This document shows positions 23,367-51,649 of a DNA stretch of 64,000 bases, piece by piece. The DNA is taken from assembly GCF_009363615.1 (NCBI RefSeq), contig NZ_CP045385.1, positions 744,001 to 808,000 of the forward strand. Reading direction: 5' to 3'. Position 1 is the stretch's first letter. Each line of letters begins with the position of its first letter. The notes below the pieces were generated by a model. That model saw nothing but the letters and a program-made list of their open reading frames with translations. It had not been told where the DNA came from and did not search any database. Source of the DNA: Ruegeria sp. THAF33 (lineage in GTDB: Bacteria; Pseudomonadota; Alphaproteobacteria; Rhodobacterales; Rhodobacteraceae). The translations under genes and the position numbers were made by a program.

Positions 23367-23369
23367 GCC

Positions 23370-25121: not shown

Positions 25122-25132
25122 TGGCGCTCCTT

Positions 25133-28178: not shown

Positions 28179-28236
28179 CTACTGACTTTCCTTTGTGACG
28201 GGATCACCGCCAAATCCTTTTGTTCCGTTGCGTGCG

Positions 28237-29079: not shown

Positions 29080-29133
29080 GGCAATTCCTCCTCGTGTAAT
29101 GGGCTTGCCCCAGCCGGGGTCGGCCTACGTGAT

Positions 29134-30642
29134 CTATTTACCCAACTGCATGATCTTGTGCTGACCGGTGGCAAAGCCGATATGTTTCTGTTCCATATAG
29201 AATTCAAAGCTCCAGTCGCCGCCATCCCGGCCGATGCCGGACGCTTTGACCCCACCGAACGGCGTGGGCAGGTGACGCACGTTCTCGGAATTCACCCAGA
29301 TCATTCCAGCCTCCAGCTTGTCTGTAAACCGAAGCGCGCGGGTCAGATCATTGGTCCAGACATAGCCGGTCAGGCCATACGGCGTGTCGTTGGCGGTCTC
29401 CAGCGCCTCATCCTCGGTCGAGAACGGGATCGAGGTCAGGACAGGGCCAAATATCTCCTCACGCGCGATGCGCATCTGGTTGGTGGCATTGGTGAACAGG
29501 GTCGGCCGGACGAAATAGCCCGCATCCCCCACCGTGACGCCGCCAGCGGCGACAGTTGCGCCATCTTCCTTGGCGATGTCGAAATAGCTCGTAACCTTGG
29601 TGTAGTGTTCTTCGGTCACCAACGGCCCGATCTCGGTATCGGGGTCCAAGGGGTGGCCCACCTTGATGTTGTTGACGCGCTCAATCAATCTGGCTTCGAA
29701 GTCTTCCTTGATCGTGTCCTGCACCAAAAGCCGCGAAGACGAGGTGCAGCGCTCGCCATTGATCGAATAGATCATGAAGATCACGGCATCCAAAGCGCGG
29801 TCCAGATCCGCATCATCAAACACGACAACCGGGTTTTTTCCACCCAGTTCCAGATGGTTGCGCTTATGGGTATCTGCGCCTTGCTTGACGATCAGACTGC
29901 CGGTACGGCTTTCGCCCACAAAGGCAATGGCCTTGATCAGCGCATGCTCGCACAAGGCCTTGCCAGCGTCGGGGCCAAACCCGTTGACCGTGTTCAGCAC
30001 ACCTTTGGGCAGCCCTGCCTGTTCGGCGATTTCCACCAGAAGACGGGCCGTCAGAGGGGAATCCTCGGCGGGTTTGTGAACCACCGTGCAACCCGCAGCC
30101 AACGCAGGCGCGATCTTCCAGGTCGACAGCATGAACGGCGTGTTCCACGGGGTAATCACGCCAACCGGGCCAATCGGCACACGGGTCGTCACATTCATCA
30201 GCGTCGGAGACTTCAGGTGCTGCCCATCCCGCGCCTGAATCACCTGATCCGCGAAATACCGGAAGTTCTCTGCCCCGCGCAAAGCTGCCTTTGACATGAA
30301 ACGCAGGGTCTGCCCCGTGTCCCAGCACTCGCACAGTGCTATTTCCTCGGCGCGCGCTTCAATGGCATCAGCCACATTCAACAAGATGCGACGGCGTTGG
30401 GTGGCGGGCATGTCTCGCCACTCTGCAAAGGCTGCGTGGGCGGCCTTGGCTGCCGCGTCGATGTCATCTGCCGTGCCATGGGCAACATCACAGATCACGG
30501 ATTTATCGACGGGCGAGACCGACTGAAACACTCCGGCAGATCCGTCTCGGTCTTCACCCGCGATACGGTTGCGGATGCCCGTTTCCCGGAACCGATCCAG
30601 AAAGCCGTTCAGCTTTTCGATGTTTGTGTCCAGTGCGCTCAT
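29134..30642 (-). CDS. hpaE: 5-carboxymethyl-2-hydroxymuconate semialdehyde dehydrogenase
   Basis: A 502-residue aldehyde dehydrogenase with catalytic C299 (INGERCTSSSR) and E265 (HLELGGKNP), plus the nucleotide-binding FVGESRTG region. Length and C-terminal QKHIGFATG match HpaE. It oxidises the semialdehyde made by HpaD. It is the second gene of the operon, 3 bases after hpaF and 54 bases before hpaD. Confidence 0.93.
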   Translation of the reverse strand: MSALDTNIEKLNGFLDRFRETGIRNRIAGEDRDGSAGVFQSVSPVDKSVICDVAHGTADDIDAAAKAAHAAFAEWRDMPATQRRRILLNVADAIEARAEEIALCECWDTGQTLRFMSKAALRGAENFRYFADQVIQARDGQHLKSPTLMNVTTRVPIGPVGVITPWNTPFMLSTWKIAPALAAGCTVVHKPAEDSPLTARLLVEIAEQAGLPKGVLNTVNGFGPDAGKALCEHALIKAIAFVGESRTGSLIVKQGADTHKRNHLELGGKNPVVVFDDADLDRALDAVIFMIYSINGERCTSSSRLLVQDTIKEDFEARLIERVNNIKVGHPLDPDTEIGPLVTEEHYTKVTSYFDIAKEDGATVAAGGVTVGDAGYFVRPTLFTNATNQMRIAREEIFGPVLTSIPFSTEDEALETANDTPYGLTGYVWTNDLTRALRFTDKLEAGMIWVNSENVRHLPTPFGGVKASGIGRDGGDWSFEFYMEQKHIGFATGQHKIMQLGK

Positions 30643-30645
30643 GCG

Positions 30646-31044
30646 TCAGGTCTCCTGCGTGGTCGCCGACAGGTGGTCGCGGATCGTACCGGCCTTGGGC
30701 GACAGCTTGGGGTCGATGTCACGCATCTCAAGCGAGAGCGCGATGGAATGCCGTGAAAAAACCGGCGCCAGATATGTTTTGACCGCCTCGAATATGCGCT
30801 GTGTCGCATCCTCTTTGACATCCGCGGATCGGCCCGCCCGCAGGCGGATCGAGATATCAATGAATCCATGCGCCGGGTTGCCGTCCGCTATGGCGTAATG
30901 ATCGACACGCGTCGCGCGCACACGAATGCCGGGCATGGGAAAGGTCTCGATCACGGCCGCCGTTGACCGAATGCACTCGCACAGGCCATCCATGTCGATC
31001 CTGTCTTCAAGATTGCCGGAATATTCGACGTGGAAGTGAGGCAT
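30646..31044 (-). CDS. hpaF: 5-carboxymethyl-2-hydroxymuconate isomerase
   Basis: A 132-residue tautomerase-superfamily protein of the CHMI family. The mature N-terminal proline that acts as catalytic base follows the start (MPHFHVEYSGN). An upstream in-frame codon would mask this proline, and AGGAGAGACC precedes the chosen ATG. It is the first gene of the hpa operon and is divergent from the MarR regulator. Confidence 0.92.
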   Translation of the reverse strand: MPHFHVEYSGNLEDRIDMDGLCECIRSTAAVIETFPMPGIRVRATRVDHYAIADGNPAHGFIDISIRLRAGRSADVKEDATQRIFEAVKTYLAPVFSRHSIALSLEMRDIDPKLSPKAGTIRDHLSATTQET

Positions 31045-31061
31045 GGTCTCTCCTTTATTAG

Positions 31062-31073
31062 TTAACATGTTTA
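31062..31073. promoter_or_regulatory. Near-palindrome in the hpaF/hpaR divergent promoter region
   Basis: TTAACATGTTTA contains the palindrome AACATGTT and matches at five of six base pairs. It is in an AT-rich patch just before hpaF, where a MarR-type operator would be expected. The 10-mer TTAACATGTT recurs (reversed) just upstream of dctP at 18675-18684. Confidence 0.45.
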
Positions 31074-31149
31074 GTTTTTAATGCACCCCCTGTCAAGAGA
31101 TTGCTTTGTTAATCTTTGCAATTCACGGAACGGCGTTCTAGAAGGCCGC

Positions 31150-31590
31150 ATGAACACTCAAAGCCATTCCAAAAGCACCGCCCGGTCCCTTCCGATCGCG
31201 TTGCTGCGTGCCCGCGAAACCGTCATGGCTCCGATCCGGGATATGCTGCAAGGCATCCAACTGACCGAGCAGAAATGGCGCATCCTGCGCGTTCTGGACG
31301 AGTTGGGCGAAGTGGAGCAAAGCACCATCGCGCACGAGGCGTGCCTGCTGCTGCCCAGCGTGACCCGCATTTTGCGCACGATGGAGGCCGACGGCCAGAT
31401 CACCCGCCGTCAGGACAGCGACGACAAACGCCGCACCATGGTCAAGATCACCGAAGCAGGCCGCACCATCCTAAGGGAAAACCTGGCCACTTCACTTGCG
31501 ATCTCCAGCAATATCGAAACGCAGATGGGCAAGGAGAAGCTGGATCAGCTGCTGGACCTGCTCGAGGAGCTGCAAGCCATCAAAGTCTGA
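31150..31590 (+). CDS. hpaR: MarR family regulator of homoprotocatechuate degradation
   Basis: A 146-residue MarR protein. Its start SLPIALLRARETVM and LTEQKWRILRVL align well with E. coli HpaR/HpcR. The winged helix covers residues about 45-110 (STIAHEACLLLPSVTRILRT and RRQDSDDKRRTMVKIT). It is divergent from hpaF and should repress the operon until an hpa pathway compound binds. A GAAGG lies before the ATG; I rejected a 23-residue upstream extension that runs through the promoter. Confidence 0.9.
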   Translation: MNTQSHSKSTARSLPIALLRARETVMAPIRDMLQGIQLTEQKWRILRVLDELGEVEQSTIAHEACLLLPSVTRILRTMEADGQITRRQDSDDKRRTMVKITEAGRTILRENLATSLAISSNIETQMGKEKLDQLLDLLEELQAIKV

Positions 31591-31634: not shown

Positions 31635-32987
31635 CTACAAAGTGGCAAGACCGGTATCCAGCGCCGACAGAATTTTGGCCACATCTTCCGAAGTGACGAT
31701 CAGCGGCGGCGACAGAATGATGTTGTTGCCAGATACACGCACCATCACGCCATCTTCATATGCGGCTTTCTGAACCTGAAGCGGCAGGTGTTTTGCGACA
31801 GGTGCCTTGGTCGCCCGGTCCGAAACCAGTTCCAATGCACACATCAGCCCCTCGCCGCCCCGCACGTCCCCGATCGCGTCATGCTTGTCGGCCAGCTTTT
31901 GCAAGCCGGCAAACAACTCGTCCCCGCGCGCAGCAGCATTTTCCCAGATCCTCAGCCGGTTGATCTCGGACAGGGCGGCCAAGGCCGCGGCCGCCCCGAC
32001 CGGATGGCCAGAATAGGTGTACCCCTGATCCACGGACGCCAGGCCCGTGGTGTCACTTTCAAACACCTCTGCGACCGCACCGGAAATCATGGCCGCGCCA
32101 AAAGGGAAATACCCGTTGGTGATCGCCTTGGCCGTCGTCATGATGTCGGGCTGAACACCCCAGTGCCGCGCACCGCTCTCGCTGCCGGTACGACCAAAGG
32201 CGGTGATGATCTCGTCCGAGATCAGCAGGATGCCGTGTTTCGAACAGACCTCGCGCACCATGGGCATGAAGCTCTTGTGCGGCGGGATCACCCCCCCGGC
32301 CCCCAGCACCGGCTCCATGATGAAGGCCGCCACAGTGTTTGCACCCTGAAAAGCGATCTCGGCCTCAAGCGCCTTGACGCAAAGCTGCGCCAGACGCTCG
32401 GGGTCGGTTTCGTCAAACGGGTTGCGATAGGTCCACGGCGCAGGCACGTGAAAACAGCCGGGCATCATCGGCTCATACACCGCGCGGAATTTCTGGTTGC
32501 CGTTGACCGAGGCGGCAGCAAAATGGGTGCCGTGATAACCCTGCTTCAGGCTGATGAACTTGGTGCGCCCTGCTTCACCCCGGACCTTGTGATATTGACG
32601 CGCAAGCTTCAGCGCAATTTCGACCGAATCCGACCCGCCCGACGTAAAGAATGAACGGGTCAGCCCGTCGGCCTCGAAGAACTGGGCCAGCTCATAGGAC
32701 AGCTCGATCGCCTTGTCGTTGCTGGTGCCGCGAAAGGTCGAGTAATAGGGCAACGCGTTCAGCTGATCCGCTATGGCCTGTTTCACCGGTTCACAGGAAT
32801 AGCCCAGATTGACGTTCCACAACCCCCCCACGGCGTCCAGCGCCGTGTGGCCATCGACATCAGTGATGTTGACCCCTTCACCACCGCTGAGAATGGTCGG
32901 TGGGTTCTTCCGGCTGTCGGCTGGGTGCGCCATCGGGTGCCAGAAGTACCGGGCGTTGTTTTCCTTCAGAAAGTTGGAGTCTTTCAT
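31635..32987 (-). CDS. Class III aminotransferase (omega-amino acid/pyruvate type)
   Basis: A 450-residue fold type I PLP enzyme. The PLP lysine is K287 in TTAKAITNGYFPFGAA, D258 is in ISDEIITAFGRTG, and the phosphate loop SGGSDSVE is near 116-123. It resembles omega-amino acid:pyruvate transaminases (beta-alanine, taurine or putrescine class). It stands alone between hpaR and the IclR gene; its own promoter is not evident. The ATG follows CGGAGAC. Substrate cannot be assigned, though a diamine or omega-amino acid is likely. Confidence 0.88.
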   Translation of the reverse strand: MKDSNFLKENNARYFWHPMAHPADSRKNPPTILSGGEGVNITDVDGHTALDAVGGLWNVNLGYSCEPVKQAIADQLNALPYYSTFRGTSNDKAIELSYELAQFFEADGLTRSFFTSGGSDSVEIALKLARQYHKVRGEAGRTKFISLKQGYHGTHFAAASVNGNQKFRAVYEPMMPGCFHVPAPWTYRNPFDETDPERLAQLCVKALEAEIAFQGANTVAAFIMEPVLGAGGVIPPHKSFMPMVREVCSKHGILLISDEIITAFGRTGSESGARHWGVQPDIMTTAKAITNGYFPFGAAMISGAVAEVFESDTTGLASVDQGYTYSGHPVGAAAALAALSEINRLRIWENAAARGDELFAGLQKLADKHDAIGDVRGGEGLMCALELVSDRATKAPVAKHLPLQVQKAAYEDGVMVRVSGNNIILSPPLIVTSEDVAKILSALDTGLATL

Positions 32988-33021
32988 GTCGCGGGTCTCC
33001 GAGTGTTGAATCCGCCCTGGG

Positions 33022-33801
33022 TCACGGGTGGAATCCGGTTGGAAAGGAGTCGGGCAACTGGCCGCCAAAACCAGCAGTCAGATCAGCCGAAAGTGAATGC
33101 AGCGTGGACAGTATTGCCGGAAGGCGGTCGCTGGTTGCCCGGGTTTCCGGGACAGCTATCGCGATGGTACCCAATGCGACCTGATCGATGCCGAAGATCG
33201 GCGCGGCATATCCAAAAACACCTTCTTCGTAACTGCCTCGGCTGTCGGCCCAGCCTGAAACTCTGATCTTTGCGACCCGTTCCTTGATAAGCTTCGGATC
33301 AGTAAGCGTGGCTTGCGTAAACCGTGCCTGCACGTGCTGATCCAACTGCTCCAAGAGGTGAGCCGGCCCGAAACTGAGCATGCAAAGACCTGATGCCGTC
33401 GCATTGAGCGGAAGCATCTCGCTGGGATCCAGACTGACGCGGACACTGTGCTGCGTTGTTTCCACCACAAGCGCCGTCTGCAACCCCGTTTTCTCAAGCA
33501 AAGACAGATGCAGGGATTCACCGACCACCTGCATAGCGGCCTGCATCTTTTGGCGCGCGCCCTCGATGCCGGGCCTGGCTATCTCTCGCAGCGCGGCCAA
33601 ACGCAAAGCCGCCGGCCCGATCGCATAGGATTTCGTCATCGGATTCTGCTCGATCAACCCGAACTCCTCGAGCGCGCGCAGGTGCCGCAACGCCGTTGCT
33701 TTGTTTAGCCCGGACAACCGCGCCAGGTGACTCAGCCCGATCTCAGGGCGGGCATTGGAAAAGTAGTCCAGCATTTTTAGGGCGTTAAGGGCTGTACCCA
33801 T
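33022..33801 (-). CDS. IclR family transcriptional regulator
   Basis: A 259-residue IclR protein. The N-terminal winged helix is at residues about 1-65 (LSHLARLSGLNKATALRHLRALEEFGL) and the GAF-like ligand domain follows, with the ATASGLCMLS segment typical of the family. It is divergent from the tctCBA operon across 108 bases that hold two inverted repeats, so it most likely controls that operon. Confidence 0.9.
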   Translation of the reverse strand: MGTALNALKMLDYFSNARPEIGLSHLARLSGLNKATALRHLRALEEFGLIEQNPMTKSYAIGPAALRLAALREIARPGIEGARQKMQAAMQVVGESLHLSLLEKTGLQTALVVETTQHSVRVSLDPSEMLPLNATASGLCMLSFGPAHLLEQLDQHVQARFTQATLTDPKLIKERVAKIRVSGWADSRGSYEEGVFGYAAPIFGIDQVALGTIAIAVPETRATSDRLPAILSTLHSLSADLTAGFGGQLPDSFPTGFHP

Positions 33802-33845
33802 GTGCGTGTGGTCCTCTTGCTCAGGTAATACTTGACAGAACTAAC

Positions 33846-33892
33846 TTAACAAAGCAACATTATTATTGTTAACGCGGTTCAAATATTGAACC
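33846..33892. promoter_or_regulatory. Two inverted repeats in the IclR/tctC divergent promoter region
   Basis: The first is TTAACAA, 13 bases, TTGTTAA (33846-33872). The second is GGTTCAA-ATA-TTGAACC (33876-33892), a perfect 7-base-arm palindrome. A TTGACA at 33832-33837 could be a -35 element for tctC, but no well-spaced -10 is clear. These are likely binding sites for the IclR regulator. Confidence 0.55.
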
Positions 33893-33909
33893 ACTAACGG
33901 GAGGTGTCA

Positions 33910-34839
33910 ATGAAGAAATTTCTAACAGCCGCCGCTTTTGCGGCTTCGGCCACTGCCGCACTGGCAGAGTACCCTGAAAAGCCGGTAAGTTTTGTCGTCC
34001 CCTGGCCTCCGGGTGATCTGGAAGATGTCCTTACCCGGATGATCGCCGACGAATTCCAGGCTATGTACGGTGTGCCTGCCGCTGTCGTGAACAAACCCGG
34101 CGGCGGAGGCGGCCCATTCCCCGGCGCGGTCGAGGTGGCAACCGCTCCGGCGGATGGCTACACCATCGGCTCATTCGTCATCGGCGTACCTGTCATCGGT
34201 CCCGAAATCGGAATTCCCGAACTCAACCCGAATCCTTTTGATCCAATTGGCATCTTCCTGACCTATCCCTTCGTCATCGCGGCCAGCAAAGACGCGCCGT
34301 TTTCAAATTGGGAAGAACTGGCCGACTACGGCAAGGAAAATGACGTGGCGCTTGGCCATTTCGGCTCGGTTCTGCCCCCCACTCAGGTCACATTTGCAGC
34401 TGCGGTCAGCAGCGGGTTCGACTTTGCCAGCGAAGCGGCTTTCGACGCCCTGGATTGCAACACGCTGGCTTCAGGCGACGTGGATGTCATCAATACGACG
34501 CTACAGCTTATCCTTCCCTGCCTTGATCAAGTGAACGTCCTTGCCAGCATCGGCGGCGAGCGGATTTCATTGGTTCCGGATACGCCGACGATCGTGGAGC
34601 TCAATCCGGATCTGCCATTGGCCCTTTGGAACGGGCTGTTTGTGCACAAGGACACGCCTGCCGACGCGCGTGAAAAGATCTCGGCTGCCGCGCAGAAAGC
34701 GTTGTCCTCGGACAAGGCCAAGAAGCTGGCTGAGGAAACGGGTGCCCTGATCTACTGGCAGGACCCGGATGCTTCGAATGCTCAGATCGAGCAGGACAAA
34801 GCCTCTTTCGCCAAGATCGAAGAGATTCTGGGCGAATAA
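33910..34839 (+). CDS. tctC: Tripartite tricarboxylate transporter substrate-binding protein (TctC family)
   Basis: A 309-residue Bug/TctC-type periplasmic protein with a signal peptide ending ATAALA and the usual start EYPEKPVSFVVPWPPGD, followed by VVNKPGGGGG. The ATG, two codons after an in-frame GTG, has GGGAGG five bases upstream. It captures the substrate for TctA/TctB. TTT ligands are mostly carboxylates, but the family is broad and the downstream genes suggest an amino compound. Confidence 0.9.
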   Translation: MKKFLTAAAFAASATAALAEYPEKPVSFVVPWPPGDLEDVLTRMIADEFQAMYGVPAAVVNKPGGGGGPFPGAVEVATAPADGYTIGSFVIGVPVIGPEIGIPELNPNPFDPIGIFLTYPFVIAASKDAPFSNWEELADYGKENDVALGHFGSVLPPTQVTFAAAVSSGFDFASEAAFDALDCNTLASGDVDVINTTLQLILPCLDQVNVLASIGGERISLVPDTPTIVELNPDLPLALWNGLFVHKDTPADAREKISAAAQKALSSDKAKKLAEETGALIYWQDPDASNAQIEQDKASFAKIEEILGE

Positions 34840-34902
34840 TCCGAAACAGGCCCGGCCAGATCGAACAACGCCGGGTCTGTTTGATTCAAACAGGAGGCCA
34901 AA

Positions 34903-35439
34903 ATGATAGCAAAGACGCTGCAAGACATGTTCCGACGGTATCGACGTCCTGGCGATATTGTCTTTGCTTTCCTTTTCTTCGGCTTCTCCCTGTTCCTTCT
35001 CAGCCAGATCGGCGCTGAGACTCAGGCCGTCAAACGAACCAAGTGGTTTGCGCAACCCGCCCTGTGGCCCAAGATCGCGATCTGGGGCATGGTTTTGTTC
35101 AGCGGCCTCCACTTGCTGGGCTCCTTCCTGTCCCCACGCATTCCCGGACGGTTGCGAGAGGTGACGTTCTGGTTGATGTCCCTCGAATACGTTGCCTACT
35201 TCCTGATCTATGTCGTGGCGGTTCCGTGGCTTGGATACCTGCCATCGACCATGCTTTTTGCAGCCCTGCTGACGATACGATTGGGGTTTCGATTGCCCGG
35301 GGCTTTTTGCGTTGCACTTGGCTTCGGCGCGGTCGTTGCAGTCGTTTTCCGCGCGTTGCTTCAGGTGAACATTCCTGCCGGTCGGATATACGAATACCTG
35401 CCCGACGGGCTGCGCGCCTTTGCGCTGACCTACCTGTGA
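34903..35439 (+). CDS. tctB: Tripartite tricarboxylate transporter small membrane subunit (TctB family)
   Basis: A 178-residue protein with four hydrophobic segments, the layout of TctB. CAGGAGGCC precedes the ATG. It lies 63 bases after tctC and 7 bases before tctA, completing a TTT transporter. Confidence 0.85.
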   Translation: MIAKTLQDMFRRYRRPGDIVFAFLFFGFSLFLLSQIGAETQAVKRTKWFAQPALWPKIAIWGMVLFSGLHLLGSFLSPRIPGRLREVTFWLMSLEYVAYFLIYVVAVPWLGYLPSTMLFAALLTIRLGFRLPGAFCVALGFGAVVAVVFRALLQVNIPAGRIYEYLPDGLRAFALTYL

Positions 35440-35446
35440 GGCCAAG

Positions 35447-36967
35447 ATGGACAATCTGATTTCCGGCTTTGCAATTCTGGCGCAGTGGCAGGTCGTCGTG
35501 GCACTGGTCATCGGATCGGTGGGCGGGGTCATCATCGGCGCGTTGCCCGGCGTCGGCGCTGCTGTCGCAATTGCCATCCTGCTGCCCGCCACCTTCGCGT
35601 TCGAGCCCATCGTCGGCCTGACCCTTCTGTTGGGCATCTACGGGTCGTCCATGTATGGCGGCGCAATCCCCGCCATCCTGATCAACACGCCCGGTACCGC
35701 CGTCAATGCACTGACCACCTATGACGGCTATCCCATGACCAAGCGCGGCGAGGGCCACCGGGCCCTATCGCTGGCCTATTCGGCGTCGTTTTTCGGCGGC
35801 ATCTTCTCGATCCTCTGTCTGATCATCCTGTCACCCGTATTGGCCTGGGTTGCCCCGCATTTCGGCAGCCGCGAGATTTTTCTGGCCGCACTCATGGGCA
35901 TCCTTCTGGTGATCCTGGCCCATCGCGGGCAAACCTTCTCGGCCGCGATGCTGGCATTCTTCGGCATCTTCCTCAGCACCGTCGGTCTAGAACCCGTCAA
36001 ATACACCAAACGTTTCACCTTTGACCAAACCTGGCTTTCGTCAGGTGTCGATCTGATCGTGGTGGTTCTTGGGCTGTTCGCCATCAGTCAGGCGCTGCTG
36101 TTGCTGGTCGACAAAGAACACGCGCCGGGCGAAGCCCATGTGCGCGGCAGCATCTTCGCGGGCCTCAAAGAGCTGCTGGGCCTGAAACGCATCGCGACGG
36201 TTTCGTCCTCGCTGGGCGTGCTCATGGGCATGATACCGGGCACTGGCGAATTCACATCACAGTTCCTGTCATACACATACGCACAGAAAACCTCTGAGGA
36301 CCCAGACAAATTCGGCGATGGGTCACCCGAAGGCCTGGTGGCGTCCGAGGCGGCCAACAATGCCGTTCCCGGGGCTGCGATGATTCCACTGCTGGCGCTG
36401 GGTATTCCGGGCGAGGCGCTGACCGCGATGATGCTGTCCGTCTTCTATGTTCACAATGTGATCCCCGGACCGCAGCTTTTCGCCGACCAGATGGATTTTG
36501 TCATGGCGCTGTACATGTCGCTGATCCTGCTCAACGTGATTGTTCTGGTCTTTCTTTTGTTCTCGACCAACCTGCTGCTGAAGATCATTCAGATCCCGAC
36601 GCGCTTTCTGGGAATCATGATCCTGACGCTTTCCTTTGTAGGGGTATTCAGCCTGCGCAACTCAGTCACGGACTGTGCCATTGCCGCCGGGTTCGGCGTG
36701 TTCGGGCTGATCCTGAAGCGCCTGAACCTGCCCATTGTTCCGATCATTCTGGGCATGGTTCTGGGCGGGATCATGGAGGTCAAACTGCGCAGCGCCATGG
36801 CGCGGGTGAAGTCGCCACTTGATTTCATCGACCGGCCGATTGCCGCAATACTTTTCATCATGATCCTCGGGATCCTTCTGCTGCACGTTCGCTCGCTGAT
36901 CAAGGAACACAAGGAACGTATCAGACCGCAGCCGGTTCTCGACGAAGACTCAACTCAGCAAGGATAA
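35447..36967 (+). CDS. tctA: Tripartite tricarboxylate transporter large membrane subunit (TctA family)
   Basis: A 506-residue integral membrane protein with about 11-12 helices. The family glycine-rich segments GALPGVGAAVAIAILLP and GMIPGTGEFTSQFLSY are clear. It is the transport channel of the TTT system and the third gene of the operon. Confidence 0.93.
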   Translation: MDNLISGFAILAQWQVVVALVIGSVGGVIIGALPGVGAAVAIAILLPATFAFEPIVGLTLLLGIYGSSMYGGAIPAILINTPGTAVNALTTYDGYPMTKRGEGHRALSLAYSASFFGGIFSILCLIILSPVLAWVAPHFGSREIFLAALMGILLVILAHRGQTFSAAMLAFFGIFLSTVGLEPVKYTKRFTFDQTWLSSGVDLIVVVLGLFAISQALLLLVDKEHAPGEAHVRGSIFAGLKELLGLKRIATVSSSLGVLMGMIPGTGEFTSQFLSYTYAQKTSEDPDKFGDGSPEGLVASEAANNAVPGAAMIPLLALGIPGEALTAMMLSVFYVHNVIPGPQLFADQMDFVMALYMSLILLNVIVLVFLLFSTNLLLKIIQIPTRFLGIMILTLSFVGVFSLRNSVTDCAIAAGFGVFGLILKRLNLPIVPIILGMVLGGIMEVKLRSAMARVKSPLDFIDRPIAAILFIMILGILLLHVRSLIKEHKERIRPQPVLDEDSTQQG

Positions 36968-36972
36968 CCCTC

Positions 36973-38457
36973 ATGGATCAATCCTCGATTGATGCGCTGC
37001 GTGCGCAGGACATTGCTCCGCGCGGGCATTTCATAAACGGTCGCAGTCAGGATGGCGAAACCGGGGCCCGGCATCAGGTTCTGTCTCCGATCAACGGCCA
37101 ACCTCTGGCGCTGATCGCCGAAGGCACACCGGCCGATGTCGATATGGCCGTGCGCGCGGCACGCAGTGCTTTCGAGGACGGGCGATGGTCGCGCATGGCC
37201 CCTGCCGGCCGCAGGAAAGTGCTGCTGAAGCTGGCCGACCTGATCGAAGCCCGCGCGCTTGAACTGGCCGTGCTGGGCGTGCGCGACAACGGAACCGAGA
37301 TCACCATGGCCTACAAGGCCGAGGCGCTCTCGGCGGCGGCCACTTTCCGGTATTATGCCGAGGCGATCGACAAGATCTACGGACAGATCGCCCCGACAAG
37401 CGGTGACGTCCTGGGTCTTGTGCATCACGCTCCGGTCGGGGTTGTCGGAGCCATCGTGCCCTGGAACTTTCCACTGATGATCGGCAGCTGGAAAATTGCG
37501 CCGGCACTGGCCGCAGGCAATTCCGTCGTACTGAAACCTGCCGAAAGCGCCTCACTCAGCCTGCTCAAGATTGCCGAGCTTGCCGCAGAAGCCGGAGTGC
37601 CCGATGGGGTGTTCAACGTCGTGACCGGGCGTGGTGCGGTCGTGGGTGAAGCGCTGGCCCTGTCGATGGATGTCGACATCATGGTGTTTACCGGGTCGGG
37701 CACAACCGGGCGGCGGCTGCTGGAGTATTCCGCGCGGTCGAACCTGAAACGCTGCTATCTGGAACTGGGGGGCAAGTCCCCGAACATCGTTTTTGCCGAC
37801 GCCCCTGATCTGGCCGAAGCGGCCAAGGTTTCCGCGGCGGGCATCTTCCGCAACTCTGGTCAGGTCTGCGTCGCCGGATCGCGCCTGTTGGTCCAGCAAG
37901 AGATCTACGAGGACTTCGTCGCCGAGATCAGCCGCCACGCCGAAGGCTTTCGCGTCGGCGACCCGCTGGATCTCAACAGCCAGATCGGTGCGGTCCACAG
38001 CCTGCCAGAGCTTCAGGCCAATCTGGATTTCGTCACCAAGGCCGAGGCCGAAGGCGCCGAACGCCGGACCGGCGGAAACCGCATCCTGACGGAGACCGGA
38101 GGCTATTACATGGCGCCGACCGTGATGGCCAACGTGAAAGAGACCGACACCCTGTTCCAGAATGAGGTCTTTGGCCCTGTTCTGGCCGTCACGCCCTTTG
38201 CCGACGAAGACGAAGCGCTGCGCCTTGCCAATGCCACCGTTTATGGGTTGGCCGGTGGTGTCTGGACCTCGAACCTCAGCCGCGCGCATCGCATGGTGGC
38301 AGGCATTCGCGCCGGCGTTGTGCATGTCAATACATATGGCGGTGCCGACCTGACCGTTCCGCTGGGCGGCGTTCGCCAATCCGGCAACGGGCACGACAAA
38401 TCGCTGCACGCGATCGAGAAATACTTCGATCTGAAAACCGCCTGGATAAAACTCTGA
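36973..38457 (+). CDS. NAD(P)-dependent aldehyde dehydrogenase (PuuC-like)
   Basis: A 494-residue aldehyde dehydrogenase. C299 (NSGQVCVAGSR) is the nucleophile and E264 (YLELGGKSP) the base; VFTGSGTTGRRL is the nucleotide-binding loop. It resembles enzymes that oxidise amino-aldehydes such as gamma-glutamyl-aminobutyraldehyde. It starts 5 bases after tctA and precedes the phospholyase by 15, so it is part of the same operon. If the next two genes act on 5-hydroxylysine, this enzyme would oxidise 2-aminoadipate semialdehyde to 2-aminoadipate; that is inference. Confidence 0.88.
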   Translation: MDQSSIDALRAQDIAPRGHFINGRSQDGETGARHQVLSPINGQPLALIAEGTPADVDMAVRAARSAFEDGRWSRMAPAGRRKVLLKLADLIEARALELAVLGVRDNGTEITMAYKAEALSAAATFRYYAEAIDKIYGQIAPTSGDVLGLVHHAPVGVVGAIVPWNFPLMIGSWKIAPALAAGNSVVLKPAESASLSLLKIAELAAEAGVPDGVFNVVTGRGAVVGEALALSMDVDIMVFTGSGTTGRRLLEYSARSNLKRCYLELGGKSPNIVFADAPDLAEAAKVSAAGIFRNSGQVCVAGSRLLVQQEIYEDFVAEISRHAEGFRVGDPLDLNSQIGAVHSLPELQANLDFVTKAEAEGAERRTGGNRILTETGGYYMAPTVMANVKETDTLFQNEVFGPVLAVTPFADEDEALRLANATVYGLAGGVWTSNLSRAHRMVAGIRAGVVHVNTYGGADLTVPLGGVRQSGNGHDKSLHAIEKYFDLKTAWIKL

Positions 38458-38472
38458 GAAAAGGCCGCCCGC

Positions 38473-39768
38473 ATGACCCTTCCAGCAAAATCCGCGGAAC
38501 TCATTGAACGCAGGGCCCGGTTGCTGGGGCCCAATGTATCGACCTTCTATGACGAACCCGTTCATTTCGTGAAAGGTGAAGGCGTCTGGCTGTGGGATGC
38601 GGACGGGCGCAAGTATCTGGATTGCTACAACAACGTGCCTCATGTGGGGCATTGCAACCCGCGCGTGGTCGAGGCGATCTGTCGTCAGGCGCGCACGCTC
38701 AACACGCACACCCGGTATCTGCATGACGGGATTCTGGACTATGTGGAAAAACTGACCGGAACGATGGACGACTCCCTGGATACGGCCATCCTCACCTGTA
38801 CCGGCTCCGAGGCAAATGACATTGCTCTGCGAATGGCCGAGGCGATGACCGGAAAACGAGGGATTATTGCCACCGACGCCACCTATCACGGCAATACCGC
38901 GCTGGTCAGCCAGTTGAGCAAATCGAACATCCCGACGGTCGGCTTCGGTCTGGGCCGGTATTTCCGCTTTGTCAGCGCACCCGACAGCTATCGCCATCCC
39001 GACCCGGATGGGTCAAAATTCGCCGATGCCGTGGCGGAACAGATTGCGGAACACGAAAAGGCCGGCACCGGTTTTGCCGCATTGATCCTCTGCCCTTATT
39101 TTCTGAACGAGGGGTTTCCCGACAATCCGGACGGTTGGCTGGCACCCACGGCCAAGGTCGTCCGCCAGGCCGGGGGCCTGCTGATCTGCGACGAGGTGCA
39201 ATCAGGCTTTGGCCGAACCGGCACCCACATGTGGGCGCATCAGAAGTTGGGCGTTGTGCCGGATGTCATGACCTTGGGCAAACCCATGGCCAACGGCCAT
39301 CCGGTGGGCGGCGTGGTCACGGGTTCCGAGATCATTTCGGCATTCCGCAAGGGATATCGGTACTTCAACACGTTTGGCGGAAACCCTGTTTCCTGTGCTG
39401 CCGCGATGGCGGTTTTGGACGAGATCGAAGACCAGAGCCTGGTCGCACATGCCAGATCCGTTGGCGACCATGCGCGAAAACGGCTGAACCTTTTGAAAGA
39501 AAAGTATAACGTCATCGGAGACATACGCGGCTCGGGGCTGATATTCGGGGCTGAAATGGTCCTTGATCGCGACAGCAAGGAACCCGCCGGAGAATTCACT
39601 GACCGTATCATCAACGCCATGCGCCAGCGTGGGATCATTCACTCCAAGCTTGGGCGTCACAAGAATACTCTGAAAATTCGCCCGCCCATGCCATTCTCTG
39701 TCGAAAACGCGGATCTCCTTTTCGACACGCTGGACGACGTGTTGGCGGAAACGCCGCTGGTCGCATGA
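38473..39768 (+). CDS. Class III aminotransferase-fold protein, probable phospholyase (AGXT2L/PHYKPL-like)
   Basis: A 431-residue PLP enzyme with K270 (TLGKPMANGHP) and D240 (ICDEVQSGFGRTG). Segments YLDCYNNVPHVGHCNP, LNTHTRYLHD and YFNTFGGNPVSC closely match the human ethanolamine-phosphate and 5-phosphohydroxy-lysine phospholyases, which eliminate ammonia and phosphate instead of transaminating. Its stop overlaps the start of a kinase gene (ATGA). A kinase plus this lyase plus an aldehyde dehydrogenase is what breakdown of a hydroxylated amine through its phosphate ester requires. True transaminase activity remains possible. Confidence 0.8.
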   Translation: MTLPAKSAELIERRARLLGPNVSTFYDEPVHFVKGEGVWLWDADGRKYLDCYNNVPHVGHCNPRVVEAICRQARTLNTHTRYLHDGILDYVEKLTGTMDDSLDTAILTCTGSEANDIALRMAEAMTGKRGIIATDATYHGNTALVSQLSKSNIPTVGFGLGRYFRFVSAPDSYRHPDPDGSKFADAVAEQIAEHEKAGTGFAALILCPYFLNEGFPDNPDGWLAPTAKVVRQAGGLLICDEVQSGFGRTGTHMWAHQKLGVVPDVMTLGKPMANGHPVGGVVTGSEIISAFRKGYRYFNTFGGNPVSCAAAMAVLDEIEDQSLVAHARSVGDHARKRLNLLKEKYNVIGDIRGSGLIFGAEMVLDRDSKEPAGEFTDRIINAMRQRGIIHSKLGRHKNTLKIRPPMPFSVENADLLFDTLDDVLAETPLVA

Positions 39769-40706
39769 AGCAGATCGTGGAACAGGCGCTGACCCTTTGG
39801 GAACTGGTCGATAGCGAATGGTCTCTTGTGGCTGCTCGGGAAAACCGCGTCTATCGCGTTCAGGCAGGCCAGACCGCCTATGCTCTGCGACTGCATCGCA
39901 AAGGGCTGCGAACCGATGCCGAACTCCGTTCAGAGCTACAGTGGATGGCTGTTCTCGGCAAAAACGGGGTCCGGGTTCCAACGCCCGTTCCGGCCGCAGA
40001 TGGGCGCTATCTGCATCTGGTGGACGGTATTCAGGTCGACATACTCGACTGGTTGCCGGGCCGCCCTTTGGGTGCGACAGGACAGGCTTTGACGCATCAG
40101 GACAGGACAGGCGTCTTTTGCTTAATCGGCCGGGAAATGGCACGGCTGCACCACATCAGCGACCAATGGACACCTCCTCAGGACTTCGTGCGTTGGTCAT
40201 GGGATCGCAGCGGGCTGCTTGGAGACGCCCCTGTCTGGGGTCGTTTCTGGGAAAACCCAACGCTTGGAAAAACGGACCGGGCCCTTTTCCTGGCGTTCTG
40301 GGATATCGCAGATCGTGACCTTCGGCGCGTGGAAAATCAGTTGGATTACGGGCTGATCCACGCCGATCTTGTCCGCGAAAACGTCATGGTTTACGGTGAC
40401 AAACTGTGGCTGATTGATTTCGACGATGCCGGGTTCGGTTTTCGCCTGTTTGATATCGCAACGACGCTTCTCAAGAACCTGCACGAACCTGATTTCAACC
40501 AGCTGCGCGGTGCTTTGCTGGCGGGGTATCGATCTGAACGACCGATCTGCACCCGCCAACTCGACCTGTTCATGGCACTGCGCGCCGTAACCTATGTGGG
40601 ATGGGTTGCATCCCGACTGAACGAAGATGGATCGGGCATACGCAATGAGCGGTTCATTGAAACCGCCCGGGCGTTGATGTCCCAATACCTTCAACAGCAC
40701 ACCTAG
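39765..40706 (+). CDS. APH/choline-kinase-fold phosphotransferase, probable hydroxylysine kinase-like
   Basis: A 313-residue protein kinase-like fold enzyme. The catalytic loop is H199-A-D201-xxxx-N206 (LIHADLVRENVM) and the metal-binding D218 is in LIDFDDAGFG. This family includes hydroxylysine kinase, homoserine kinase II, choline kinase and aminoglycoside kinases. Its start overlaps the phospholyase stop by 4 bases, so the two are translated together. It most likely makes the phosphate ester that the phospholyase uses. An antibiotic-resistance role is unlikely in this context. Confidence 0.8.
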   Translation: MKQIVEQALTLWELVDSEWSLVAARENRVYRVQAGQTAYALRLHRKGLRTDAELRSELQWMAVLGKNGVRVPTPVPAADGRYLHLVDGIQVDILDWLPGRPLGATGQALTHQDRTGVFCLIGREMARLHHISDQWTPPQDFVRWSWDRSGLLGDAPVWGRFWENPTLGKTDRALFLAFWDIADRDLRRVENQLDYGLIHADLVRENVMVYGDKLWLIDFDDAGFGFRLFDIATTLLKNLHEPDFNQLRGALLAGYRSERPICTRQLDLFMALRAVTYVGWVASRLNEDGSGIRNERFIETARALMSQYLQQHT

Positions 40707-40719
40707 ACAGGAGGCACCA

Positions 40720-41955
40720 ATGGCCCAAAAGACAATCCTGCTGATTGGTACGTATGATACCAAAGAGCCCGAAATGCGGTTTATCGAAAAGGCGGTCAGA
40801 GCGCAGGGCGCTGACGTGCTGACCATGGATGTATCGGTTCTGGGTGATGCGTCCGAATCGACGGATATCTCGAAACACGACGTTGCCGCTGCCGGCGGCA
40901 TGACAATAGAACAGGTCATCGCGCAAGGAGACGAGAACAAAGCCTTTCGCGTGATGTCCGCAGGGGCCGCAAAAGTTGTTGCACAGGCCTATTCAGAAGG
41001 TCGATTTGACGGGATGCTGGCCACGGGCGGGACCATGGGCACAGACCTTGCGCTGGATTGTGCACAGGCTTTGCCGATGGGCGTTCCCAAATATATCGTG
41101 TCAACGGTCAGCTTCTCGCCTCTGATCCCTCCGCACCGGTTGGCGCCGGATGTTCAGATGATCCTGTGGGCCGGCGGCCTGTATGGCATGAATTCGATCT
41201 GCAAATCGTCGCTCAGCCAGGCTGCCGGGGCCGTCGTGGGCGCAGCCAGGGCAGCGACCGCACCCGATCGCAGCAAACCTCTGATCGGGATGACCAGCCT
41301 TGGTTCGTCCTGCCTGCGCTACATGAAAATTCTGAAACCGGCACTGGAAGACCGCGGCTTTGAAGTGGCCGTGTTCCACTCTACCGGCATGGGCGGCATG
41401 GCCTATGAAAAACTGGCGGGCGAAGGCGCGTTTGCCTGCGTGATGGACTTCTGCATGCAGGAATTTGGCAACCTGATGGCGGGCTCTGTCGTGTCCAGCG
41501 GCGATGACCGGGTCACCAATGCCGGGCGCGTTAGAACGCCCCAGATGGTGGCACCCGGTGCGCTGGATCTGCTGGATTTTGCGGGCTGGCAGGACATCCC
41601 CGAACAATATGCCGATCGCCCGTTCCACGAACACAACCGCCTGATCAAAAGCTCGGTCTTCAACGGCACCGAACGGCGCGCCTGGATTCGGGAACTCGCC
41701 AACCGGCTGGAAGCCGCAACCGGGCCGGTGCATTTCTTTTTGCCCGTTCAGGGCGTCGAGGCCTGGGACAGGGAAGGCGAAGAGGCGCATGATCCAGAGG
41801 CTCTGGCAGAAATGGTGGACGAGGCGCGCAAGGTCATGCCCGGCCGGGTGCCGATGACCGAGCTGGATGTTCACATCAACGACGCGGCCTTCTGCGAAGC
41901 TGTTCTGTCGCGATTTGACACGTGGGTGGAAACAGGCGTCATCAGAACAGACTGA
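40720..41955 (+). CDS. UPF0261 / Tm-1-like ATP-binding domain protein
   Basis: A 411-residue protein of the UPF0261 family (Tm-1-like). It opens with ILLIGTYDTKEPEMRF and has the conserved LATGGTMGTDLAL and GMTSLGSSC segments. The N-terminal half of tomato Tm-1 has this fold, but bacterial functions are not established. It follows the kinase by 13 bases and seems to be the last gene of the tct operon. Family members often sit with TIM-barrel or catabolic genes. I do not assign a reaction. Confidence 0.85.
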   Translation: MAQKTILLIGTYDTKEPEMRFIEKAVRAQGADVLTMDVSVLGDASESTDISKHDVAAAGGMTIEQVIAQGDENKAFRVMSAGAAKVVAQAYSEGRFDGMLATGGTMGTDLALDCAQALPMGVPKYIVSTVSFSPLIPPHRLAPDVQMILWAGGLYGMNSICKSSLSQAAGAVVGAARAATAPDRSKPLIGMTSLGSSCLRYMKILKPALEDRGFEVAVFHSTGMGGMAYEKLAGEGAFACVMDFCMQEFGNLMAGSVVSSGDDRVTNAGRVRTPQMVAPGALDLLDFAGWQDIPEQYADRPFHEHNRLIKSSVFNGTERRAWIRELANRLEAATGPVHFFLPVQGVEAWDREGEEAHDPEALAEMVDEARKVMPGRVPMTELDVHINDAAFCEAVLSRFDTWVETGVIRTD

Positions 41956-42389: not shown

Positions 42390-43190
42390 ATGCTCAAGAA
42401 ACTCGTCGCTTTGGCGGCCTTCACCACTTTCACAACAGGTCCTGCGATGGCGGACACGCTCGACGATGTCGTGGATCGCGGCACTCTTCGCTGCGGCGTT
42501 GTTCTGGACTTTCCGCCGATCGGGTATCGCGACGCCAACAACGAACCGGCGGGTTTTGACGTGGATTACTGCAATGATCTGGCCGCGGCGCTTGAAGTTG
42601 AGGCGGAAATCCTGCCTTTGACCTGGGCCGAACGCCTGCCGGTCATCGTGACCGGGCGCGCCGACGTCGTGTTCGGCGCAACCTCGGACAGCCTTGAACG
42701 GGCGCGGACCGTGGGCTTCAGCATTCCCTATGCAATCTACTATGCGCAGGGCGTCGTGAACGCGGACAGCGGGATCGAAACCTTCGAAGACATCCGCGGC
42801 AAACGCGTCGCCGCCGCGATTGGCACCGTGCCGGAACAGGAATGGCTGAAGATTGCCGCCGAATGGGGTGAGGAAGGCAATTATCAGGGCTATCAGTCGG
42901 AAAACGAGGTGTTTCTGGCGGTCGCGCAGGGCAAGGCCGATATCGGCATCACCACCAACACCGCCGTTCTGCCGATCACCCAGCAGTATGAAACCGTGGT
43001 GGCCGGCCCCCGTATGCCCTGGACAACCGACTACACTTCGGTGGTGGGCAAACGACAGGACGTCACCTGGCTGAATTTCCTGAACCTGTTTGTCACGCAT
43101 CAGGTGCGCTCGGGCCGGTATCAGGAACTGTGGGGCAAATATGTCGGAGGCGAAGCACCCGAGCTGCGCATCCCCGGCGTGATGTACTGA
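42390..43190 (+). CDS. Polar amino acid ABC transporter substrate-binding protein
   Basis: A 266-residue family 3 solute-binding protein. The signal peptide ends TGPAMA, and the mature protein begins DTLDDVVDRGTLRCGVVLDFPPIGYRD. The amino-acid-binding pattern (GFDVDYCNDLAAAL, and LPVIVTGRADVVFG) is standard. It is the first gene of a run that includes two permeases, an ATPase and hydroxyproline enzymes, so hydroxyproline or a derivative is the probable ligand. Confidence 0.9.
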   Translation: MLKKLVALAAFTTFTTGPAMADTLDDVVDRGTLRCGVVLDFPPIGYRDANNEPAGFDVDYCNDLAAALEVEAEILPLTWAERLPVIVTGRADVVFGATSDSLERARTVGFSIPYAIYYAQGVVNADSGIETFEDIRGKRVAAAIGTVPEQEWLKIAAEWGEEGNYQGYQSENEVFLAVAQGKADIGITTNTAVLPITQQYETVVAGPRMPWTTDYTSVVGKRQDVTWLNFLNLFVTHQVRSGRYQELWGKYVGGEAPELRIPGVMY

Positions 43191-43259
43191 TTTCACCCCC
43201 CAGTGCTCTTTCGTCGGGTTTCGGCCGGGCGAAAGAGCCGGTCAATTCGGAAAAAACCT

Positions 43260-43922
43260 GTGTTCGATTACAACTTCCACTGGCGGCCGGTCATGAAAAA
43301 CCTGCCGGACTTGCTTGAGGCATCGCTGCTGACCTTGCAAGTCGCGGTTCTGGCGATGATCCTGGGCATCCTCATCGGCCTGTGTCTTGCGCTGACGCGG
43401 CTGCACCTGAAGGGGCCGCTGTACTGGTTCGCCTCGGCCTGGGTTGAACTGGCCCGAAACACACCCGCCCTGTTTCAGCTGTTCTTTTTCGGCTTCGGGC
43501 TTGGCGCATTCGGCCTGCACCTGTCGCCATACTTCATCGTGCTGGCGGGTTTGACCTTCAATTGCGCCGGCTATCTGGCCGAAAACTTTCGCGGAGGTTT
43601 CCAGGCCGTCCCCGAGACGCAGTTGCGGGCCTCTCGATCCCTGGGCATGACCGCGTGGCAGGCTTACACACGCGTGGTGATCCCGCAGGTGTTTCGCATC
43701 GTCTATCACCCGATCACCAATCAGATGGTCTGGGCCGTGCTCATGTCCTCGCTGGGCATGCTGGTCGGTTTCCGCGAGCTGTCAGGCGAGACGCAGTTCT
43801 TTGCCTCGCGCACCTTCCGCATCTTTGAATATTTCGCCGTCACCGCGATCATCTACTACGTGATCGTCAAAATCATTCTCGGAGCCTCACGCCTGCTGGC
43901 GACCCGGCTCTTTCGCTACTGA
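43260..43922 (+). CDS. Amino acid ABC transporter permease (HisM/GlnP type), first subunit
   Basis: A permease of about 220 residues with five helices and the EAA-like loop GGFQAVPETQLRASRSLGMTA. The start is uncertain: I chose a GTG giving VFDYNFHWRPV, a common opening for this family, over a GTG 57 bases upstream; neither has a strong ribosome site. It pairs with the next permease. Confidence 0.82.
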   Translation: MFDYNFHWRPVMKNLPDLLEASLLTLQVAVLAMILGILIGLCLALTRLHLKGPLYWFASAWVELARNTPALFQLFFFGFGLGAFGLHLSPYFIVLAGLTFNCAGYLAENFRGGFQAVPETQLRASRSLGMTAWQAYTRVVIPQVFRIVYHPITNQMVWAVLMSSLGMLVGFRELSGETQFFASRTFRIFEYFAVTAIIYYVIVKIILGASRLLATRLFRY

Positions 43923-43933
43923 AGGACGCTCGG

Positions 43934-44596
43934 ATGGAACCCACTGTCAGCTTTTTCAGCGGCTTCACCATCAATGATCTGTGGTTTCTGGGCGAAGCGG
44001 CCCTGCGGACACTCTGGATTTCGGTTCTGTCGATATCCATCGGAACGCTTCTTGGCGTGGTATGCGGGTGGATCCTGTACGAGGGCAAGCTGGCCGCAGC
44101 CCTGACAGTGGCCCCGTTTCTGGATGTTTTCCGTTCCGTCCCGCTGATCATCCAACTGGTGCTGTTCTACAACTTTGCGCCCATTGTCGGGCTCAATCTG
44201 GATCCGTTCGCCTCGGGCGTGGTGATCCTATCGATCTACACGGCCGCCTTGGTTGCGAATGTCGCACGCGGCGGGATCGAGGCCGTCGGTGCGCCGATGC
44301 GCCGTGCCGCACGCAGTCTGGGCATGACCTATTGGCAGGATCTACGCTATGTCGTCTTCCCGATTGGCGGGCGCGCGGTGTTCCCGGCCTGGGTCGGTGT
44401 CGCACTGGGAGTGATGAAGGACAGCGCGTTGGTTTCGGTGCTGGGCTATGTCGAACTGCTCAAGGCCAGTCAGATCCTGATCACCCGGACGCAGGAACCT
44501 TTCCTGATCCTGACAATCGCGGGCGCGTTCTATTTCGCGCTCAGCTATCCGATTTCGCGCTATTCCGCGTCTCTTGAAAAAAGGTGGGCCCAATGA
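43934..44596 (+). CDS. Amino acid ABC transporter permease, second subunit
   Basis: A 220-residue permease with the coupling loop GGIEAVGAPMRRAARSLGMTY. It starts 11 bases after the first permease and overlaps the ATPase gene by 4 bases (ATGA), so the transporter genes are co-translated. Confidence 0.9.
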   Translation: MEPTVSFFSGFTINDLWFLGEAALRTLWISVLSISIGTLLGVVCGWILYEGKLAAALTVAPFLDVFRSVPLIIQLVLFYNFAPIVGLNLDPFASGVVILSIYTAALVANVARGGIEAVGAPMRRAARSLGMTYWQDLRYVVFPIGGRAVFPAWVGVALGVMKDSALVSVLGYVELLKASQILITRTQEPFLILTIAGAFYFALSYPISRYSASLEKRWAQ

Positions 44597-45315: not shown

Positions 45316-45354
45316 GTGCACTGGCCCCCTGAAACAACAAGGAAGATCACCTTC

Positions 45355-47237: not shown

Positions 47238-47303
47238 CAAAACTATCGGGGACTGGCGCAATCCAGCCCCCGGAACCAAGCCACAGTTTGAGAAGATCTG
47301 GCC

Positions 47304-48554: not shown

Positions 48555-48569
48555 TCAGGAGAACACCTC

Positions 48570-49673: not shown

Positions 49674-49680
49674 GGTAAAC

Positions 49681-50706: not shown

Positions 50707-50865
50707 CGTCAGAAGGCACGGTTTTCGAAAACGGAAAAGTCTGAAGATACGCGGCCTCGTTGCGGTTTCATCATCAGATTCAGGCCTTTTTTCAAATCTC
50801 GGGCAGGGGTTGAACATGGGTCGAAATCCAAGTTCGGCTTGGAAAAGTCCGTGATTGCGGGTAAT

Positions 50866-50876
50866 TGTATCCAAAA
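50866..50876. promoter_or_regulatory. Repeated 11-mer upstream of the GntR gene
   Basis: TGTATCCAAAA, identical to the element before dppA and, reversed, to the one before the semialdehyde dehydrogenase gene. It ends 20 bases before the GntR start codon, consistent with autoregulation. Confidence 0.55.
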
Positions 50877-50896
50877 ACCGTGGCGGGATATTGGAA

Positions 50897-51577: not shown

Positions 51578-51599
51578 GGCGGTCTTGCATGTCCTGTTA

Positions 51600-51617: not shown

Positions 51618-51649
51618 TTAATCTGGACATCCCGAAACACGAGGCCCAA

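Follow-up and report, generated by a model that had tools for sequence, protein, structure and literature searches.

The subject of this analysis is an operon at positions 33022–41955 of a 64,000-nucleotide stretch of Ruegeria sp. THAF33 DNA (hereafter the window; C2:744001–808000, C2 comprising 811,101 bases of a 4.63 Mb genome), in which a small-molecule kinase of the APH fold is encoded next to a pyridoxal phosphate (PLP) dependent lyase, an aldehyde dehydrogenase (ALDH) and a tripartite tricarboxylate-type (TTT) transporter. On the strength of sequence comparison and gene linkage, we believe that the operon probably serves the catabolism of 2-amino-1-arylethanols (noradrenaline, octopamine or phenylethanolamine). 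With less assurance, though still on balance, we favour a phosphorylation–elimination route for noradrenaline/octopamine, made up of the kinase and an O-phospho-arylethanolamine phospho-lyase, as one that numerous marine Rhodobacterales and plant-associated Rhizobiaceae encode. The reaction logic would be that already known from the kinase/phospholyase pairs for ethanolamine, aminopropanol and hydroxylysine; the aromatic substrate would be new.

Working along the operon, we see a divergent IclR gene followed by seven plus-strand genes in the order tctC-tctB-tctA-ALDH-lyase-kinase-UPF0261; the gap between IclR and TctC is 102 bases, and those that follow are 63, 7, 5, 15, −4 (the lyase/kinase overlap) and 13 bases, with the next gene 434 bases past UPF0261. 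This bears out the first-pass annotation in its gene content, the four-base overlap, the closeness of tctCBA and ALDH and the divergent regulator; its description of UPF0261 as an unexplained extra member also stands. The closest plasmid match of the lyase, from Ruegeria sp. AD91A, is 94% identical and has the same surrounding gene order.

The lyase (PF00202; 256.9 bits against a cut-off of 30.5) has as its nearest solved relatives two phosphoethanolamine phospho-lyases: 5g4i (379.1 bits, 3e-112), which together with 5g4j we take to be Arthrobacter aurescens A1RDF1, and human ETNPPL, 6tor (334.5 bits, 1e-98); the next PDB chain, at 196.5 bits (8e-57), falls 138–183 bits below both. The window lyase shares with these enzymes the class III fold and the motif NNV(P/A)HVGH, which it carries as NNVPHVGH and which is found in 104 of the 112 rows counted, both PDB rows included. 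Within the home genome, the motif is absent from five other class III proteins (L003–L007, L007 being the module's own transaminase; L008 and weaker matches lie outside the comparison) and present in one, L002. The reaction expected in common is a beta-elimination in which phosphate leaves from beside a terminal amine. In the lyase tree the window lyase is on a separate branch from 5g4i and 6tor, and for this enzyme an aryl side chain is suggested by the overlapping kinase gene and the setting among aryl-acetate pathways. The L002 protein (C1:2502236–2503519) is a 1064-residue open frame with a phospholyase-type domain bearing NNVPHVGH, perhaps a fusion of the PRK06148 type, and is a candidate for ethanolamine or hydroxylysine metabolism.

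The kinase (PF01636; 105.3 bits) carries the HAD..N and IDFDD motifs, with H199, D201, N206 and I217–D221 invariant in both 9 and 29 aligned sequences, and its AlphaFold model has a mean predicted local distance difference test (pLDDT) score of 94.8. First among its PDB matches, by sequence as well as by fold, is 6ef6, a ‘microcompartment-associated aminopropanol kinase’ (TM-score 0.83, 33% identity), with which it shares the APH fold. With the lyase lying close to the phospholyases and the kinase close to 6ef6, the substrates should therefore be of the form H2N-CH2-CH(OH)-R, a substrate logic common to both kinases. The first-pass annotation had proposed an uptake and breakdown module for 5-hydroxylysine or a similar hydroxylated amine; its kinase/phospho-lyase/ALDH chemistry holds up by homology, but the choice of 5-hydroxylysine does not.

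What decides the interpretation is a feature overlooked in that annotation: a homoprotocatechuate meta-cleavage (hpa) cluster directly upstream of the operon (Table 1). Likewise overlooked was a separate class III transaminase, whose gene sits after the IclR gene on the minus strand and has a homologue in 45 of 79 genome loci. The hpa cluster includes a gene for a homologue of aromatic L-amino acid decarboxylase (AADC), whose nearest PDB entries are 3,4-dihydroxyphenylalanine (DOPA) decarboxylase 7xin (1.7e-112), tyrosine decarboxylase and AADC. Because the kinase/lyase pair is linked to hpa genes, the product R-CH2-COOH should be 3,4-dihydroxyphenylacetate or a precursor; in Mesorhizobium, where the pair is linked to phenylacetate (paa) genes, it should be phenylacetate. 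From these linkages we propose that R is aryl, in contrast to the methyl group of the 6ef6 substrate (linkage to ring-cleavage genes being a further point that sets the window kinase apart), and hence that noradrenaline, octopamine or phenylethanolamine serves as the substrate. For the 4-hydroxyphenylacetate 3-hydroxylase HpaB, a search of the home genome with PF03241 found nothing (the positive control was found in 4 of 14 genomes), nor did the Rhizobium protein have a match (a search without positive control), and the phenol-monooxygenase match there is weak (45.5 bits). As the home genome thus appears to lack HpaB, the catechol noradrenaline is our first guess at the substrate in this strain; another hydroxylase, for example the P450-like protein at 14491–15726, may act in place of HpaB.

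The linkage can be read directly from other genomes. We fetched 80 genome loci as best matches, of which 79 have a kinase open reading frame (ORF; one lacks it by the criterion used), together with 19 plasmid loci picked by lyase or kinase (best and chosen diverse matches, and so a non-random sample). A lyase ORF is present in 77 of the 79 genome loci having a kinase ORF, so the pairing is non-random. On the plasmids, hpa enzymes are found at 12 of 19 loci (L009, L010, L012, L014, L015, L097, L099, L100, L102, L124, L126 and L128), or at 11 of 17 when L097, which holds a lyase fragment only, and L127, which has no close lyase, are set aside. Elsewhere on the plasmids we find HpaR only (L011), a phenylacetate operon (Mesorhizobium, L125) and a tyramine oxidase alongside an aldehyde dehydrogenase (L101, from Phyllobacterium). 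A genome-neighbourhood comparison of the pair had been suggested as a check on the first-pass annotation: kinase and lyase do travel together, but the neighbours that recur are hpa, paa and amine oxidase genes and, among annotated products, not genes of lysine or aminoadipate metabolism. The fragmentary lyase of L097 stands beside the kinase in Sinorhizobium fredii CCBAU 45436; at the NGR234 locus (L102) the lyase is complete.

Pairs linked to hpa genes occur in Rhodobacterales, Rhizobiaceae and Sphingobium. At L141, nine closely spaced same-strand genes run ALDH-UPF0261-hpaF-E-D-G-H-lyase-kinase, the ALDH being 69–70% identical to that of the window; L140, which has the same sequence as L090, reads lyase-kinase-hpaF-E-D-G-H; and L054 reads hpaF-E-D-G-H-I-lyase-kinase, followed by a gene 29–30% identical to HpaB. 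A phenol 2-monooxygenase-type gene adjoins the pair in L012 and a few other loci. In Mesorhizobium sp. AR07 (L125), an APC permease-lyase-kinase string stands directly ahead of paaX, pcaF, paaABCDE and paaZ, a layout that suggests 2-phenylethanolamine catabolism. The divergent loci L101, L126 and L127 have a short-chain dehydrogenase gene near the kinase, whose product could oxidise or epimerise the hydroxyl carbon; and related modules, L015 and L012 among them, contain a further hydrolase, which belongs to the HAD family in 17 of 79 loci or has the MBL fold in 9 of 79. All-against-all clustering for recurrent unknown neighbours was dominated by antisense ORFs and contributed little.

At the level of whole genomes, we compared 248 members of the family, nearly one per genus, with kinship handled by this draw alone. 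A kinase cut-off of 240 bits, chosen after the list was seen, returned 32 genomes, 30 of them with HpaE. Synteny was checked in 12 of the genomes concerned; one (G241, L135) was moved to the core-locus group described below, and two with too few neighbours to classify (L130 of G124 and L138 of G033) were kept in the first group. After this correction HpaE is present in 29 of 31 kinase genomes as against 60 of 217 others (p = 1.0e-12), whereas genomes with weaker kinase homologues keep to the background level, at 16 of 62 as compared with 44 of 155 that have no homologue (p = 0.74). Twelve of the 33 kinase genes scoring over the cut-off share a contig with HpaE and stand no more than 16 kb from it. 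As a control we used PaaZ, computed on the uncorrected set of 32 kinase genomes: its link to the kinase is weaker (22 of 32 versus 92 of 216, p = 0.007), and the association with HpaE remains both in PaaZ-positive (21 of 22 versus 43 of 92, p 1.9e-5) and in PaaZ-negative genomes (9 of 10 versus 16 of 124, p 6.2e-7).

The scheme that we propose for arylethanolamine breakdown is as follows. The TTT transporter, in whose stead other loci have APC or TRAP systems, would take up the amine, and the APH-fold kinase would phosphorylate the side-chain hydroxyl of H2N-CH2-CH(OH)-Ar. The PLP lyase would then form an external aldimine, take a proton from the amine carbon and expel phosphate from the benzylic carbon; hydrolysis of the enamine would give Ar-CH2-CHO and ammonia. 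ALDH would oxidise this arylacetaldehyde—presumably (dihydroxy)phenylacetaldehyde—and the resulting 3,4-dihydroxyphenylacetate would pass to the adjacent hpa meta-cleavage pathway. Through the transaminase and decarboxylase, dopamine/tyramine and DOPA/tyrosine would converge on this aldehyde as well. Whilst the genes and their linkage are observed, we infer every activity in this scheme, and the substrate itself.

There is also a second, paralogous group of pairs. At 20 weaker kinase loci (L103–L122, 174–228 bits), ArfB adjoins the kinase in 20 of 20 and the lyase is present in 19; no hpa genes lie within about 6 kb at any of the 20, and a nicotinate phosphoribosyltransferase-like gene is found at 15. 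We regard this ArfB-linked core pair as a second conserved Rhodobacteraceae locus, its substrate perhaps a general amino alcohol. Core-locus lyases form their own branch of the lyase tree (Shimodaira–Hasegawa-like approximate likelihood ratio test, SH-aLRT, 98; rows L004 and L007, both home-genome transaminases, carry no meaning in this tree). Between accessory and core lyases only positions 112, 127 and 226 split strongly, and we draw no pocket conclusion from them.

Several observations weigh against the assignment to arylethanolamines. As to linkage, 61 of the 79 genome loci have no hpa enzyme within reach (18 have at least one), and among the 59 of at least 18 kb the figures are 43 without and 16 with; a reach of 10 kb does undercount the linkage, since in the window itself 10.6 kb separate HpaE from the kinase. 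Four of the 19 plasmid loci (L013, L016, L098 and L127), including that of Ruegeria pomeroyi DSS-3, are without recognised aromatic genes, two genomes with the kinase (G047 and G181) have no HpaE match at the threshold applied, and HpaE may mark versatile genomes generally, for which PaaZ controls in part. As to the proteins, the closest curated family of the ALDH, and its top NCBIfam match, is PuuC, at 537 bits under a cut-off of 850 (nearest PDB entry KauB, 6b4r); the activities of kinase and lyase on arylethanolamines are predictions from sequence; and the roles of UPF0261 and the transaminase are putative. Uptake is the least certain step, because TTT systems usually carry carboxylates and an APC permease replaces TctA in Rhizobium and Agrobacterium loci.

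The phylogeny, too, is awkward for this assignment. Rhizobiaceae hpa-linked lyases branch separately, from the fork that also gives rise to the core branch and the main group, so that the tree gives no single hpa-linked clade. The pairs of Sphingobium, Mesorhizobium and Phyllobacterium, to which the broadest range of aryl-acetate settings is owed, are only 46–50% (lyase) and 38–41% (kinase) identical to those of the window, whereas core-locus pairs without hpa genes are closer in the lyase (52–59%; kinase 36–44%). With core pairs more like the window than the divergent aryl-linked pairs are, it would be unsafe to assign function on resemblance alone, and our argument rests on repeated linkage; the aryl function would either be old and lost in the core pair, or have arisen more than once.

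The same core pairs, and the solved structures nearest to both enzymes (5g4i, human ethanolamine-phosphate phospho-lyase and 6ef6), speak for a simpler substrate, the operon then degrading ethanolamine or 1-amino-2-propanol through kinase, phospho-lyase and an acetaldehyde or propionaldehyde dehydrogenase. We consider this unlikely: such pathways would not explain why the pair is linked to hpa, paa or amine oxidase genes, and the ArfB-side pair, unlinked to hpa, is the better candidate for a general substrate.

For 5-hydroxylysine, the substrate first suggested, the kinase would yield 5-phosphohydroxylysine, the lyase 2-aminoadipate semialdehyde and ALDH 2-aminoadipate, following the reaction logic of human HYKK and PHYKPL. 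Animal hydroxylysine kinase and PHYKPL act in the order kinase, phospholyase, aldehyde oxidation, the same three steps as in the window; the genomic context differs, however, and an amino-acid side-chain substrate is unsupported here. A hydroxyproline-type cluster downstream, both in the window and at L009, would suit collagen-derived amino acids, but among L009–L096 the full set is found with the pair in the near relative L009 alone (a single gene occurs in L081), and we have rejected the collagen link on this ground. Lysine-degradation genes do not recur with the pair among annotated products (unannotated loci were not searched for them), the sole product touching lysine breakdown being a 3-keto-5-aminohexanoate cleavage protein in L101; nor did the literature searched, of partial coverage and hence a weak negative, yield a route of hydroxylysine catabolism in Sinorhizobium. 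As the kinase is tied to hpa genes by position and across genomes, and the home genome has a separate phospholyase-motif protein in L002, we reject 5-hydroxylysine as the leading substrate on genomic context and hold it to be very unlikely.

A variant within the aromatic context takes another aromatic amino alcohol as substrate, for example one that the AADC homologue would make from a beta-hydroxylated aromatic amino acid ahead of phosphorylation, or else an N-acyl conjugate. The place of the decarboxylase gene in the window cluster, the carboxylate-type transporter family and an amidohydrolase gene close to some of the loci (L013, L040 and L057) fit such a substrate; but at the threshold and reach applied, a decarboxylase homologue occurs at just 2 of the 79 genome loci, besides L009, L014, L097 and L102, and we think the variant highly improbable. 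That the PLP enzyme is an ordinary dopamine/tyramine transaminase, with the kinase serving another step, would agree with the cluster context, the class III aminotransferase fold and the plasmid records that name the lyase an aminotransferase, yet is likewise highly improbable given the bit-score lead of the two phospholyases, a motif that five other home-genome class III proteins lack, a separate transaminase already in the module (itself without the motif, its nearest PDB entries being 6s54 and omega transaminase 5lh9), and a lyase that overlaps and travels with its kinase.

Turning back to arylethanolamines, bacterial catabolism of dopamine/tyramine and noradrenaline/octopamine proceeds via hydroxyphenylacetates, and a synephrine dehydratase is known. 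We know of no route among these in which the side-chain hydroxyl is removed by a kinase and phospho-lyase; the end points, (dihydroxy)phenylacetaldehyde and then homoprotocatechuate, are shared with our proposal. In the literature searched, whose coverage is partial and the negative hence weak, no kinase/phospho-lyase route for octopamine or noradrenaline was found, and the available portions of PMC10816480 and PMC5897657 contain nothing on a bacterial octopamine route.

Two further systems resemble parts of the operon. The Aut aminopropanol microcompartment combines an APH phosphotransferase with an aminotransferase-like protein and an aldehyde dehydrogenase, all three as in the window, but its steps are assigned differently, to an aminotransferase and lactyl-CoA, in the part of the account available (PMC6620236). 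PbfA, the (R)-1-hydroxy-2-aminoethylphosphonate ammonia-lyase, is another lyase of class III fold, and its site of action adjoins a terminal amine; according to the accessible sections of PMC8154272 it uses a free hydroxyl compound, unlike the phosphate ester proposed for the window lyase, which scores 198.5 bits as PbfA against a cut-off of 525.

If our proposal is right, it would name the genes with which bacteria remove the beta-hydroxyl in breaking down noradrenaline, octopamine and phenylethanolamine, amines that animals and plants use as signals. Phospho-lyase chemistry, known for ethanolamine, hydroxylysine and aminopropanol, would then reach aromatic amines, and a large APH-fold set would gain a substrate: 4742 proteins among 7998 candidates are related to the kinase at E <= 1e-40, paralogues with other substrates certainly among them, and any names that sources have given to the 120 listed are generic or unrelated (phosphotransferase, homoserine kinase and stress response kinase, for example).

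Table 1. Genes of the operon and of the upstream hpa cluster (window positions; hpa scores are measured against NCBIfam equivalog cut-offs, and locus counts refer to the 79 genome loci).
Feature	Position	Strand	Evidence or remark
Homoprotocatechuate meta-cleavage (hpa) cluster	24066-31590	mixed	directly upstream of operon
HpaI homologue	24066-25121	-	340.1 bits, under cut-off 368.8
HpaH	25133-25933	-	388.2 bits, over cut-off 351.5
HpaG-like	25930-26784	-	156.9 bits, under cut-off 276.4
Aromatic L-amino acid (DOPA/tyrosine) decarboxylase homologue, inside hpa cluster	26781-28178	-	
HpaD	28237-29079	-	352.6 bits, over cut-off 315.95
HpaE	29134-30642	-	754.7 bits, over cut-off 638.35
HpaF-like	30646-31044	-	74 bits, under cut-off 215
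HpaR	31081-31590	+	133.2 bits, over cut-off 121.2
Class III amine transaminase, PRK07481 subfamily	31635-32990	-	NF005683 above cut-off
IclR-family regulator, divergent	33022-33801	-	PF09339 + PF01614; homologue in 46/79 loci
TctC, solute-binding protein of TTT transporter	33904-34839	+	PF03401
TctB, small membrane protein of TTT transporter	34903-35439	+	PF07331
TctA, large membrane protein of TTT transporter	35447-36967	+	PF01970; homologue in 44/79 loci
Aldehyde dehydrogenase (ALDH), PuuC/KauB type	36973-38457	+	PF00171
Class III-fold PLP enzyme, proposed 2-amino-1-arylethanol O-phosphate phospho-lyase	38473-39768	+	PF00202
APH-fold small-molecule kinase, proposed 2-amino-1-arylethanol (noradrenaline/octopamine-type) kinase	39765-40706	+	PF01636
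UPF0261 (Tm-1-like) protein	40720-41955	+	PF06792 + PF23189; homologue in 47/79 loci

Of the minor features, UPF0261 is described as co-evolving with a TIM-barrel partner in the portion of PMC5028733 available; in contrast to that pairing, the home genome gave no match to PF09370 (PEP_hydrolase/TIM-barrel), in a search whose positive control was found in 1 of 14 genomes. Downstream of the operon, positions 42390–53164 hold an amino-acid ABC transporter followed by the hydroxyproline-type catabolic cluster (DapA-like, two proline racemase-family proteins, an FAD oxidoreductase, a cis-3-hydroxyproline dehydratase-like protein and a GntR regulator; names taken from the annotation of L009) and an ALDH-like ORF. 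On the other side of the hpa cluster, at 12341–23966, lie phenylacetate genes of the paaZ, paaG, paaI, paaK and TetR/paaR types, named from a reading of the ORFs, with P450-like and TRAP-like genes interspersed; aryl-acetate pathways (paa-like and hpa) are grouped together in this part of the window.

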